Positions 40,365 through 45,365 of a DNA stretch of 64,000 nucleotides are shown here, piece by piece; the stretch's first letter is position 1, and each line of letters opens with the position of its first letter. The DNA lies in NCBI RefSeq assembly GCF_005405065.1, contig NZ_BJDI01000001.1, positions 124,001-188,000 on the forward strand, in the 5' to 3' direction. The notes beneath the pieces are model-generated. The model did not search any database and was not told where the DNA came from. It saw only the letters and a list, made by a program, of their open reading frames with translations. The stretch is from Lactiplantibacillus nangangensis (lineage in GTDB: Bacteria; Bacillota; Bacilli; Lactobacillales; Lactobacillaceae). The position numbers and the translations under genes are program-made.

Positions 40365-41432
40365 ATGCCAAGGAAAGAGCCCCGTTATATGACGATTTAT
40401 AACGATTTAAAACAGCAAATTCTAACTGGCGAACTTCAACCAGATGACCAGTTACCCACAGAATTACAACTCACCAAAACATACCATGTGAGTCGGATCA
40501 CTTCAAAACGGGCTCTGACCGAGTTAGAAAGTCGCGATTTGATCTATCGTAAGCAAGGGAGTGGCAGTTTCGTCCAACGGCATGCGCAGACGACAACCAG
40601 TAAACAATTGCTCGTCGTCTTGCCATTTCCGACCGACGCTGGTTTAGGTGACTATGCTTCCGGTATCAGCGCCGCCGCCAACGCCCGCAACTATCAAGCC
40701 GTCACGATGGATCCCCGTGGTTTTGCCCAGTTGACCACGACACAAATCAAGCGCAACTATGCCGGGATTATTTATTTACCACAAGACCTTTATCAGGAAG
40801 CGGAACAACTCTATCTCTTAAAGTTGGATCACGTGCCCGTCGTCTTGCTCGATAAATCACTGCCCGAATTAGAATTACCCGTGGTCGCTGCCGACAACTT
40901 CAACGGTGGTCAGCTCGCCACGACCCACTTGATTAAACAGCACCATCAACATATTTTATTCTATGCACAAAATCCAGGGGCAGTCCTACCAAGTTCAGTC
41001 TATGAACGTTACTTTGGTTACTTACAAGCCTTACATCAAGCCGGTTTGAAGCCTGTCGCGTCGATTCACGAACTCGTGGCCCTCAATGAACTCACACCGA
41101 CCGCTTGGTTAGACTATCTCAAGCAGCATCAAATTACGGCCATTGTGGTTGAAAACGACTTAATCGCCATCAAGTTGATGAATCGTTTACGCGCCGTTGA
41201 CCCAGCAATTTGGCAACGGCTCTCGATCATCGGCTTCGACAATATTCAGGCGGCCAGCTTGACCTATCCCGCTTTGACGACGATTGCCCAGGACTTTAAA
41301 GGCATGGGCCGAAAAGCGGTTGAACTCTTACTCAATACACCTGCTAATCCGAAAATCGTGCGTTTGCCAGTAAAATTGATCAAACGCGCTTCTACTAGAA
41401 TTCTAGCTTCCAAGGAGGAAACAAACTCTTGA
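40365..41432 (+). CDS. GntR-family regulator with LacI-type sensor domain (AraR-like)
   Basis: A 355-residue chimeric regulator. An N-terminal GntR winged helix (PRYMTIYNDLKQQI, ELQLTKTYHVSRITSKRAL and QGSGSFVQRH, about residues 6-70) is joined to a LacI/PurR-like periplasmic-binding-protein domain with DNFNGGQLATTHLI and SIIGFDN. This is the architecture of AraR of Bacillus subtilis. It most likely binds a mannoside or mannose-derived effector and controls the flanking mannosidase genes through TGATATA sites. Its stop overlaps the start of the GH92 gene. Confidence 0.9.
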   Translation: MPRKEPRYMTIYNDLKQQILTGELQPDDQLPTELQLTKTYHVSRITSKRALTELESRDLIYRKQGSGSFVQRHAQTTTSKQLLVVLPFPTDAGLGDYASGISAAANARNYQAVTMDPRGFAQLTTTQIKRNYAGIIYLPQDLYQEAEQLYLLKLDHVPVVLLDKSLPELELPVVAADNFNGGQLATTHLIKQHHQHILFYAQNPGAVLPSSVYERYFGYLQALHQAGLKPVASIHELVALNELTPTAWLDYLKQHQITAIVVENDLIAIKLMNRLRAVDPAIWQRLSIIGFDNIQAASLTYPALTTIAQDFKGMGRKAVELLLNTPANPKIVRLPVKLIKRASTRILASKEETNS

Positions 41433-43564
41433 AAATTGATGAAATTGATATTCGCCAGGGAACTGCTAATACGCCGCAACGTTCCCACGGTAACTGTTTA
41501 CCATACGTTGGTGTACCATTTGGCATGAACTACTTTAGTGTTCAAACGAACGGCGCTGACGGCGCTTGGTTTTTCCAACCCGCCTCACCACGTTTCGAAG
41601 GGATTCGTTTGACCCATCAGCCTAGTCCGTGGATCGGCGATTACAGCCACTTGCTGTTAACGGCCGTGCAATGGGCTGATCCTGACAAAAAGCCTGATCT
41701 AGTTGGGAACTATCGGCCAAATGAAGCCACCTTTAACGCTCACCATTTAGCGCTTTTCGACGATCATTTCAATGTGCAAACCGACTTAGTCCCAACTGCT
41801 TATGGTGCCGCCCTGAATTACGACTTCCAACAGTTAGAACTCGCCCATCACGGGATTGCGATCCAATTACCCGATGACGGTCAATTCGAATTCACGGCAA
41901 CTGGCGTCAAAATGAGTGTCTCCGATTACCACGGTGGCGAAGATCCAAACTTGGCCATGGCGTTTGAACTCGCAATTCCTAATTTTGATGTTGTTAATTC
42001 TGGTTTTTACGATGCCGATAATCAGTGGCATGCCGCAACTAAAGGCGCCGGCAAACAACTGACCTTACTTTTAGCGACCACGGTAGCCCAGGTTGACTGT
42101 CGCTTAGCCACTTCTTATCTCAACGCAGCCCAAGCGACCCGGAACTTGCAACGGCTACAGACGCCAACCTTTAACATGTTACTAAATGAAAGCGCTGACC
42201 TTTGGAATAATTACCTCGGCCGCATCACGGTTGAGGATCATCATCCAGCAACGGTGAAGACCTTCTACACTTGCCTTTATCGCTTATTCTTGTTCCCACA
42301 ACGTTGCTATGAATTAGATGAAACTGAACAACCGATTCATTACGACACCATAGCAAAAACGGCCAAACCTGGGCTACTTTATACCAACAATGGTTTCTGG
42401 GATACTTCGAAGACGGTCTACTCACTCTTCTCAATTCTGGCACCCGAACTATTGCCAAAATTCCTGCGGGGCTTCTTGACTAGTTACCAAGAAACAGGTT
42501 TCTTACCACGCTGGCTCGCACCAGACGAACGCGGCATGATGCCCGGCAACCTCGTTGATTCCGTGATCGCTGAAAGTGCTAAAAAAGGCTTAGCCGCGGA
42601 TTTAATGCCTGAACTGTTGGCCGCCATGCAAGATAGCGATTCTAAAAGCGCTACAGGTGAACGCTATGGTCGTCAAGGTAGCGCCGATTATGACAAGTTT
42701 GGCTATATTCCAGCCGATAAATACAAGGAAAGCGTGAACTGGACACAAGATTACTCATACAGTGACTACTGCATCGGGCAAGTGGCCGACACGTTAGCCC
42801 AACCGAAAGTCGCGGAAAAATACTGGCAATTATCGAAACGCTATCTTAATTTATTAGACCCTGAAACTGGCTTTTTACGCCCTAAGAATAGTGACGGTAA
42901 CTTCAAGCCTAACTTTGTGCCAGACCGCTGGGGAACCGACTATACGGAAGGTAGTGCTTGGCAAAACAGTTACAGCGCCTTTCATGACATCTCCGGTTTA
43001 ATGACGGCGCTGGGTGGTAAAGACCGATTTAACGCCCAACTAACTGAATTATGTAACACTAAACCGACTTATCACGTCGGCGGCTATGAAATGGTTATCC
43101 ATGAAATGTCTGAATTAGCTGCTGTAGACTACGGCCAACTGGCGATTTCCAATCAACCAAGTTTCCATCTGCCTTACTTGTTCGACTTCGCTGGTCATCC
43201 TGAGAAGACGCAAGTTGCAGTTAAACAATTACGGAAACTATTCAACGCTTCGGCCACTGGTTTCCCTGGTGATGAAGATAACGGCTCAATGGCTGGCTGG
43301 TTCATTTTTGCCTGCTTGGGCTTCTACCCAGTATGCCCCGCTGACGCGGAATACGCCCTCGGGATTCCTGCTTTTGACCAAGTGACCTTGCACTTGGCAG
43401 GTCACGATTTACAGCTGACGACCACTAATAACCACGATCACAACAACTTCGTTCAAAGCACGAGTATTGATGGTGAACCGTTGACAGATTTCACAATCAG
43501 CCATGCAAAATTGATGACAAGTACCCATATTGCCACTCGCTTAGGCCTAGTTCCAAATAATTAA
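41429..43564 (+). CDS. GH92 alpha-1,2-mannosidase
   Basis: A 711-residue Ca2+-dependent exo-alpha-mannosidase of family GH92. Recognised blocks are HGNCLPYVGVPFGMNYF, GFWDTSKTVYSLF (family GxWDT), YTEGSAWQNSYSAFHD and the C-terminal GFPGDEDNGSMAGWFIF and LGFYPVCPAD. It lacks a secretion signal, as does the streptococcal enzyme that trims alpha-1,2-mannose of high-mannose N-glycans. TTG at 41429 with AAGGAGG 8 nt before it overlaps the regulator stop, indicating coupling. GH92, GH38 and GH125 together can remove every alpha-mannose linkage of a high-mannose glycan. Confidence 0.93.
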   Translation: MKIDEIDIRQGTANTPQRSHGNCLPYVGVPFGMNYFSVQTNGADGAWFFQPASPRFEGIRLTHQPSPWIGDYSHLLLTAVQWADPDKKPDLVGNYRPNEATFNAHHLALFDDHFNVQTDLVPTAYGAALNYDFQQLELAHHGIAIQLPDDGQFEFTATGVKMSVSDYHGGEDPNLAMAFELAIPNFDVVNSGFYDADNQWHAATKGAGKQLTLLLATTVAQVDCRLATSYLNAAQATRNLQRLQTPTFNMLLNESADLWNNYLGRITVEDHHPATVKTFYTCLYRLFLFPQRCYELDETEQPIHYDTIAKTAKPGLLYTNNGFWDTSKTVYSLFSILAPELLPKFLRGFLTSYQETGFLPRWLAPDERGMMPGNLVDSVIAESAKKGLAADLMPELLAAMQDSDSKSATGERYGRQGSADYDKFGYIPADKYKESVNWTQDYSYSDYCIGQVADTLAQPKVAEKYWQLSKRYLNLLDPETGFLRPKNSDGNFKPNFVPDRWGTDYTEGSAWQNSYSAFHDISGLMTALGGKDRFNAQLTELCNTKPTYHVGGYEMVIHEMSELAAVDYGQLAISNQPSFHLPYLFDFAGHPEKTQVAVKQLRKLFNASATGFPGDEDNGSMAGWFIFACLGFYPVCPADAEYALGIPAFDQVTLHLAGHDLQLTTTNNHDHNNFVQSTSIDGEPLTDFTISHAKLMTSTHIATRLGLVPNN

Positions 43565-43590: not shown

Positions 43591-43640
43591 AAACCGAGCA
43601 GTCCATGATCTGAATGCGATTATCGACTGCTCGGTTTTTA
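43591..43640 (+). terminator. Terminator of the gntR-GH92 transcript
   Basis: Arms AAACCGAGCAGTC and GACTGCTCGGTTT with an internal loop, followed by TTTTTACTT. Confidence 0.9.
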
Positions 43641-43680
43641 CTTAATATCTAAAAATTGCAAAAGCTCAACCCTTTAACAA

Positions 43681-43866
43681 GCCGGAGGGCACTGCTGATT
43701 GCATCGGTCGTGATGGTGGCGTTTGGTCGGCTGGTTTTTCGCCGGCCTTACGCCACGGACGGTCCGGGACAATTGCGACCTTGGCAACTGTTCCGGGCGA
43801 GGGTCAAGACGTTTTTCAGGCTTGGCCCGGTCCCACGACCGCATGTCATCAGCAGTGCCCGGAGGC
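43681..43866. repeat. GC-rich fold-back element of unknown type
   Basis: A 186-base non-coding block clearly richer in GC than its surroundings. Its ends form an inverted repeat: left GGGCACTGCTGAT plus CGGTCGTG, right CACGACCG plus ATCAGCAGTGCCC. Inside are further stems: GGCTGG/GCCGGCC around a T5 loop, and a 13-bp near-perfect stem with arms CCGGGACAATTGC and GCAACTGTTCCGG. It fills the gap between the convergent GH92 and response-regulator genes. No reading frame looks genuine. It resembles a multi-copy structured intergenic repeat or small RNA; copy number cannot be seen from this window. Confidence 0.5.
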
Positions 43867-43890
43867 AAACCGTTTTAATAATTGCAAAGA

Positions 43891-45365
43891 CTATCTCATC
43901 GGCTGCGTTAACGCTTGGCGCCGATATTCCTTTGGTGAAATATCACAAATCAACCGGAAGTTCTTATAAAAATAACCACTATTCGTATAACCAATATCTA
44001 ACGCAATGTTACTAATACTTTCATCCGTATGCGTCAGCATTTCTTTGGCTTGGTCGATGCGATGCTGATTCAAATACTTCGAAAAACTCGTGTGAACCTC
44101 TTTTTTAAACAACTGGCCCAAATAGACCGGGTTCAAATGCAGCCGATCCGCTACTTGCGTCAGCGATAAATCCTGCGCATACTCTTGCGCCACGATATCG
44201 ATAACTTGTCGCACGTTCTTAGAAAAGCTCGGCTGCGTCTTCGGCTCATATCGTTGTACGATTGCGACAACGGCTTCTTCCAACCGCGCAATCGTCGGTG
44301 CATTGTCGATTGCCGTGAGTTGCCGCTCGTAATCTTGATTGCTGAATGTCTGGTAATTACTCAACACATTTAGCACCAGAAAGGCGACTTGCCGCGCATA
44401 CGACGGGGCGACGTGTTCATTACTCAACTTGGCAAACATCGCCCGCGTCAACGTGACCATGAGGGTTTGGTTGTCACTCCCTAGCGCCCGTTTGAATTTG
44501 TCCAACGAAATTTTAGGAATCTCCGCTTGCCGCAACCATTCAGTTCGCATTGCCCCCGATAAAAATGGCGACCGATCTTCGTAAAATTGGTATAGCTCGG
44601 CCAGTGTTTGCGCCTGTTCCAAACTATCGGCCAATTCCGAAAGCTCACTGACCCGTTGCCCCACGGTCACAAAGGACTCACCCGTAATCAGCTGTTGCGC
44701 TTCTAACTGCTGAATAAACTGCGTTAAGGCAATGTGTGAGCCGATAAAACAAATAATAAACTGATCCTGACTCGCATAATACAGATTTTGTTTCTGCTGC
44801 TGACAAGCCTGACTTAAAGCATCATAATTTGTCACAGCATTACAACAGATGACCGTAAACTTATGTTGGTTAGTCGCTGCGCCTGCGCTGTCCAATAATT
44901 GGGTCGCTTGCTCCGGGTCAGCTCTTGTGAGATCAACCGTTCTGTCTGCATCTCTAAGTAATAGTGCTTCGTCGCATCCGTCTTCGTGCGTAAGTCTAAC
45001 TGCTGCTTGGCACGATCCAATACCTGATCTAATTCCTGCGCATCAATTGGTTTAACCAAATAATCCATGGCGCCAAAATGCAGCGCTTGTTTCACATAAT
45101 CAAATTCTTGAAAGCCTGACAAAACAATGACGACCGGCGCTTGTGGCAACGCTTGCAGTTTTTGCATCAACGCTAGCCCAGTCATCTCCGGCATGCGGAC
45201 ATCCGTAATCACTAAATCCACCGGTTGCTGCTTAAATGCGGCTAAAGCCTGCTTCCCATTGCGGGCCGTTTGAACAATTTCAAAGCCGTGACGCTGCCAA
45301 TCAACGATTTTTGCCATCCCTTTGAGGATCATGTACTCGTCATCAACAATCATTACACTGTGCAC
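43891..45365 (-). pseudogene. Frameshifted YesN-type AraC response regulator
   Basis: Two overlapping frames together make one protein. The first (GTG at 45365, stop at 44832) encodes a receiver domain: MIVDDEYMILKG with the acidic pair, DLVITDVRMPEMTG with the phospho-Asp, and DYLVKPIDAQ. The second (to 43891) encodes the linker and a C-terminal AraC helix-turn-helix pair (LSLTQVADRLHLNPVYLGQLF and GYTNSGYFYKNF). Alignment to the intact paralogue at 48134 places a one-base deletion near 44911-44925. The joint length of 1475 bases is one short of a whole number of codons and matches the paralogue. Sequencing error is possible; otherwise the regulator lost its DNA-binding half. Confidence 0.85.

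Follow-up and report, generated by a model that had tools for sequence, protein, structure and literature searches.

A folded, GC-rich block between two convergent genes

What is the GC-rich, fold-back block that separates two convergent genes of Lactiplantibacillus nangangensis, and how did it come to lie there? We analyzed it within a 64-kb window (the whole stretch of 64,000 nucleotides studied, part of a 2.9-Mb draft genome in 39 contigs). The initial annotation had placed the block at 43681-43866 and described inverted ends, an extension of these ends, and an internal stem. All were located: the inverted ends, GGGCACTGCTGATTGCAT and ATGTCATCAGCAGTGCCC (43687-43704 and 43843-43860), are 89% complementary; their extension, CGGTCGTG and CACGACCG (43705-43712 and 43834-43841), is exact; and the 16-nt internal stem (43716-43731 with 43741-43756) is 81% complementary. 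The same annotation called the composition GC rich and unlike that of the surroundings, and the GC content is 62%, versus 44.8% for the window. The neighboring genes do converge, with a GH92 glycosidase gene on the plus strand and an AraC-type regulator gene on the minus strand; a response-regulator receiver gene lies beyond the latter. The block itself is real, but its ends, as judged from aligned copies, are at about 43679 and 43868, two bases further out on each side. The locus is composed of the following features.

41429-43564, plus strand: GH92 glycosidase gene
43592-43639, plus strand: intrinsic-terminator-like hairpin and T-run of the GH92 gene (sequence; inverted arms), a neighbor outside the repeat
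43679-43868, plus strand: structured repeat, module A (alignment of 30 own-genome copies; match to covariance model R2 at 43681-43867, 156 bits)
43681-43712, plus strand: 5' arm of closing stem P1, with a 3x3 internal loop, GGA/GGA, near the stem base (MFE structure; compensating changes in own copies and across genera)
43716-43756, plus strand: hairpin A (MFE structure; own-copy covariation; helices 2 and 3 of the cross-genus alignment)
43757-43833, plus strand: inner stem enclosing hairpins B and C, 43757-43760 pairing with 43830-43833 (MFE; covariation; cross-genus helix 4)
43762-43798, plus strand: hairpin B (MFE; own-copy covariation; helix 5 of the cross-genus alignment)
43801-43828, plus strand: hairpin C, with an AGAC...GGCT motif (MFE; covariation; helix 6 of the cross-genus alignment)
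43834-43866, plus strand: 3' arm of closing stem P1 (MFE structure; compensating changes in own copies and across genera)
43891-44895, minus strand: AraC-type regulator gene

The fold of this module of about 190 nt consists of a long stem, an inner stem, and three hairpins. Folded as plus-strand RNA, the block has an energy of -120.9 kcal/mol (z = -9.7), which no sequence in a set of 200 dinucleotide shuffles equaled; the z scores are -8.1 for minus-strand RNA and -7.8 for DNA. The window contains one copy of the repeat, set between the GH92 terminator, whose T-run lies 39 nt upstream, and the AraC-type gene, whose stop codon lies 22 nt away on the other side. It has no partner module beside it, no T-run directly 3' of it on either strand, and no terminal inverted repeats (TIRs) around it, the inverted match of its 60-nt flanks being 6 nt, which equals the background. 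A nine-base direct repeat, AATTGCAAA, flanks the copy at 43654-43662 and 43880-43888 and might be a target duplication; it is the longest flanking direct repeat among the own-genome copies, which as a set show no excess.

Copy number and host range

Using a 351-base query, BLAST retrieved at least 41 matches in the L. nangangensis genome, at 73 to 100% identity and with the query's own place counted; since 40 of 92 candidates were scored, 41 is a lower bound. Over the genus, the same approach was positive for 10 of 21 Lactiplantibacillus genomes. From 34 copies we built a covariance model (R1), which gave at least 106 matches in the L. nangangensis genome (126 candidates scored) and reached 14 of the 21 genomes, and copy number within the genus ranges from 0 to more than 100. 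The BLAST and covariance model matches bear out the earlier suggestion of a dispersed structured repeat: far from being a single copy with unconserved stems, the block has many relatives, and their stems covary. Named relatives with the repeat include Lactiplantibacillus pingfangensis, Lactiplantibacillus xiangfangensis, Lactiplantibacillus daoliensis, and an uncultured Lactobacillus MAG.

In a family-wide search that scored no more than 10 candidates in each genome, R1 matched 39 of 251 Lactobacillaceae genomes from 10 of 40 genera, and all matches listed were full length. A second covariance model, R2, matched 1 of 398 genomes across the class, that of L. nangangensis itself, a weak bound on range given six candidates per genome and strict filters. 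The window copy had no Rfam match at gathering or relaxed thresholds, and 12 loci holding relatives yielded nothing relevant up to an E value of 0.1. No description of the repeat family was found in the open-access PMC literature.

The window copy had no match in plasmid and phage collections, nor did three relatives (L276, L282, and L303) among plasmids. A Loigolactobacillus-type copy matched five plasmids at one common place, and one copy of this type had no match in the phage collection. The plasmid-borne repeat (L323:2497-2689) is found on beer plasmids of Loigolactobacillus backii and Pediococcus damnosus, is identical in the five records, and sits between MerR/SMR-efflux genes and a cupin/decarboxylase pair.

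Conservation of the fold

Among 30 own-genome copies, 28 of 65 predicted pairs had double changes that kept the pairing. We also aligned 66 matches, drawn from 46 loci in other genera, and 55 of 59 pairs had changes on both sides. In this alignment, 92.1% of cells were paired versus 67.3% after shuffling, a percentage biased upward by an alignment fitted to the model and by loci drawn from the model's better matches. Because of this fitting and choice, the covariation argument is carried by the shuffle and slide controls: shuffling lowered the number of double-change cells from 972 to 256, and sliding the partners lowered the covariation score from 0.655 to at most 0.106. Several unpaired or facing bases are nearly invariant across genera, including the unpaired TG at the first junction (63/64 and 63/65), the facing A and G of hairpin B (62/64 and 59/64), and the AGAC...GGCT motif of hairpin C (A, 62/65; C, 64/65; G, 63/65; G, 65/65). 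Not all matches share the GGA/GGA loop near the P1 base; both sides read GGA in 17 of the 66. These results show that compensating changes maintain the fold, both within and between genera.

Compensating changes can also come from template switching in a palindrome or from gene conversion between copies, and copy L024 has a block of paired changes that resembles one or the other. Five sites common to two genomes, G011 and G020, allow copies to be compared in place. Over 310 pairs, there were 18 compensated doubles, where chance would give about 1.6, and 4 doubles that broke the pair; single changes comprised 19 to G-U and 6 to A-C, with 7 other breaks. Module identity at these sites was 81.5 to 92.7% versus mostly 86 to 96% in the alignable flanks; the left flank of one site was worse (72% over 83 columns). 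Pairing is therefore kept in place, and sequence is not.

The departures from pairing also carry information about the strand. We counted them in 173 of 188 nonredundant full-length copies, those scoring at least 140 bits, where the commonest pair is Watson-Crick. In the 56 own-genome copies, inherited departures were 40 G-U versus 3 A-C, and private departures were 59 G-U, 38 A-C, and 51 other. In 117 copies of relatives, G-U exceeded A-C by 118 to 85 among inherited and by 101 to 95 among private departures; in other genera, the counts were 135 and 68. A G-U pair on the plus strand corresponds to A-C on the opposite strand, and the plus strand is thus favored as the folded one. These counts suggest that the plus strand is the one that folds, clearly for the inherited changes of own copies and weakly elsewhere. 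The third suggestion of the initial annotation, a free-standing structured RNA, may apply, given a fold conserved over several genera and this preference for plus-strand G-U pairs.

Module pairs and their genes

Modules often come in pairs whose two members have diverged. Close pairs in other genera were head to head in 18 of 19 cases, with their 5' ends facing and 54 to 287 nt apart; in Lactiplantibacillus, all 23 adjacent pairs counted were head to head, and most had about 24 nt between the modules. In the larger Lactiplantibacillus unit, the second module is also a full match to the model in its own right.

The 3' side of the module has a preferred neighborhood. Of 30 copies in L. nangangensis, 26 have a gene on this side whose end is toward the repeat. 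In the family sample, with ORFs called by a simple longest-ORF rule, genes facing the repeat make up 36 of 61 counts, and 13 of the 14 in which the gene lies within 25 nt. The L. backii plasmid has the same 3'-side arrangement beside the MerR gene. A terminator is present on the 3' side of 18 of 34 own copies and on the 5' side of 2 of 34. Polar insertion was considered as the cause of this bias and dropped, since, with modules head to head, both edges of a unit are 3' ends and no polarity is needed. An ORF of at least 80 amino acids runs across the module in 9 of 30 own loci.

TIR-ended units and an IS4-family partner in Lactiplantibacillus

Some modules lie within units bounded by CTAAAGGTTGAAAG and its complement. 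Allowing no more than 3 mismatches at either end and 4 over both, and a length of 250 to 650 bp, we collected 78 nonredundant units from Lactiplantibacillus. Module A is present in 70 of the 78, which is no unbiased rate, as loci were mostly chosen for module A or TIR. Exact flanking direct repeats were of length 0 in 27 units, 4 to 6 in 9, and 7 to 9 in 42; a repeat of at least 6 nt flanked 44 of 78 units versus 1.1% for mismatched flanks. A T-run within 25 nt pointed at the unit in 50 of 78 cases and away from it in 14, and a hairpin plus T-run stood beside 37 of 78. The TIR-ended units, with their 14-bp TIRs, are thus shown by these counts to insert just downstream of terminators and to generate duplications of 7 to 9 bp.

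Exact CTAAAGGTTGAAAG at both ends was found in 12 units of one genome (G001) and in a 1.57-kb IS of another (G004), from a sister species. In G004, the same ends, 1,565 bp apart, enclose a single ORF of 451 amino acids that belongs to the IS4 family (NF049925; 2.1e-144). The first 18 bases of this IS are identical (18/18) to a MITE end, and in a BLASTN comparison of the IS with the units, good matches were confined to the ends. The TIR-ended units fit MITEs of an IS4-family IS, with a module pair or a single module as the core. The earlier proposal of a mobile, nonautonomous element accordingly holds for the family in Lactiplantibacillus, with its TIR units, target duplications, and IS4-family partner; it is only a possibility for the window copy, which has no recognizable ends.

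At an E value of 1e-20, matches to the IS4_4 transposase were present in 5 of 21 Lactiplantibacillus genomes, and none was found in that of L. nangangensis. In G012, G013, and G017 (contigs G012:C1, G013:C2, and G017:C5; loci L259, L261, and L262), relatives of the transposase match in pieces, with stops in G017. Genome G009 has 71 exact TIR sites, and each of its units L241 to L243 has two modules that share the fold and have diverged strongly. The window itself has an isolated TIR-like sequence, ACTTAAGGTTGAAAG, with one mismatch, on the minus strand at about 9443 (G000:C1:133443-133457).

Copies without ends

The copies that lack these ends behave differently. In the own-genome set, most of it without TIRs, target duplication was not above the mismatched-flank control (5.8 versus 6.1), and in 17 head-to-head pairs of other genera neither TIRs nor target site duplications (TSDs) rose above background. 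The IS4 route therefore cannot explain the whole family. IS4_4 was over the cutoff in 24 of 251 Lactobacillaceae genomes, and no co-occurrence with the repeat was found across the family: by an eye count, 6 of these 24 are among the 39 repeat-positive genomes. No clean ancestral empty site was found between G011 and G020, and no precise gain of an end-less copy was found. Two candidates for a precise empty site were rejected: L136 retains the start of a TIR and is more likely a deletion, and L125 retains part of the module. End-less copies are either decayed units or members of a family with another way to move.

At the window site itself, a full copy in G020 and a truncated one in G011 lie next to the corresponding AraC-type gene, oriented like the window copy. 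This insertion probably predates these species, barring parallel insertions.

Origin and meaning of the repeat

We consider it probable that the window block is an old, end-less copy belonging to a family of small nonautonomous interspersed repeats of Lactobacillaceae, with units that an IS4-type element would have moved and a fold that may be selected at gene 3' ends. An IS4-type transposase would have moved the TIR-ended units in trans; single-module units are deletion derivatives of the head-to-head pair. The window copy would be a single module that has lost its ends and partner or that arrived by a second route without ends. Selection may act on the folded plus strand, either as RNA or as single-stranded DNA. 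The most likely reason, which we offer with more reserve, is that a compact structure at gene 3' ends could stop read-through and invading transcripts and so make an insertion tolerable; the module might sometimes be retained for such transcription-blocking use.

A more far-reaching reading, which we raise tentatively and find rather doubtful, is that these repeats are a new mobile class in Lactobacillaceae, made of twin head-to-head folded modules that spread and persist through the folded plus strand, as RNA or single-stranded DNA, by a TIR-free route, later hijacked by IS4-type ends in Lactiplantibacillus and in places serving as a 3'-end RNA. It is unlikely, in our estimate, that the repeat is simply a mobile element moving as folded single-stranded DNA by a route of its own, with an enzyme that recognizes the fold and a later capture by an IS4-type MITE in Lactiplantibacillus. 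Such mobility would fit the lack of TIRs and TSDs in the 17 pairs of other genera and in the own TIR-less copies, the strand-biased tolerance of G-T, and the spread over 10 of 40 genera, but no enzyme was found (co-occurrence was examined for IS4_4), no precise empty site was found for an end-less copy, the G011/G020 differences inspected consist of a TIR unit and deletions, and neither the window copy nor one Loigolactobacillus-type copy was matched in the phage collection.

The excess of compensated doubles and of G-U over A-C at the five shared sites would also be expected of a structured RNA that serves the host at gene 3' ends, by end protection, as a transcription barrier, or in trans, and that spread by transposition and is now selected in place. 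The same place and orientation at the same AraC-type gene in three species and the near-invariant unpaired bases across genera point the same way. Against this stand a module that diverges as fast as or faster than most alignable flanks, orthologous copies that are deleted or truncated (L125 and L042), a copy number that falls from more than 100 to 0 within one genus, and 24-nt spacers that leave little promoter room between paired modules; we judge such a host role, as the whole explanation, to be improbable. A chance palindrome or plain terminator, as the site between convergent genes and near a terminator might suggest, is refuted by the z score of -9.7, the many copies, the cross-genus covariation, and the lack of a T-run directly after the block on either strand.

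Several known systems resemble this repeat. REP/BIME repeats are paired, inverted palindromic units of 20 to 40 nt that lie between genes and are associated with RAYT transposases. The repeats studied here likewise form inverted pairs of palindromic units between genes, but each unit is about 190 nt with three hairpins. The IS4-family IS (NF049925) includes the autonomous partner in G004, which has the ends of the repeat units, but the repeat probably encodes nothing and also occurs in genera without these ends.

The closest described elements are BOX, RUP, and SPRITE of pneumococci (PMC3049150) and MITEs generally (PMC10969869). BOX of Streptococcus pneumoniae is likewise small, modular, tightly folded, dispersed in more than 100 copies, equipped with TIRs and TSDs, overrepresented between convergent genes, and accompanied by little evidence of a host role (PMC3049150). 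It belongs to another host family, and BOX, RUP, and SPRITE are reported there to be infrequent outside close relatives; here, two copies of one fold stand head to head, the fold covaries across ten genera, and no TIR was seen outside Lactiplantibacillus. SPRITE is terminator-like and AT rich, with one 18-bp duplex plus a U-rich tract; it too occurs near gene 3' ends, but our repeat is GC rich and has no U-tract (PMC3049150). Bacterial IS MITEs share the nonautonomous state, TIRs, target duplication, and an autonomous IS with identical ends (PMC10969869); here, the interior is a conserved two-module structure and not a deleted IS, and singles without ends are common.

The family thus presents one fold kept by compensating change over at least 10 genera, in up to at least 100 copies per genome, that is absent from Rfam. 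In one genus, it is tied to a named IS family and to a target rule, just after terminators. Why an apparently noncoding repeat conserves its structure and whether this structure acts at gene 3' ends become testable questions in food-grade bacteria.

Other observations in the window

The spacer orthologous to that of the window holds different GC-rich fold-back modules in other Lactiplantibacillus species (L047, L048, and L050), as if the space between the GH92 and AraC-type genes collected such modules. Elsewhere in the window, a T-box leader at 370-625 on the plus strand (114 bits) is the sole Rfam match at the gathering threshold.
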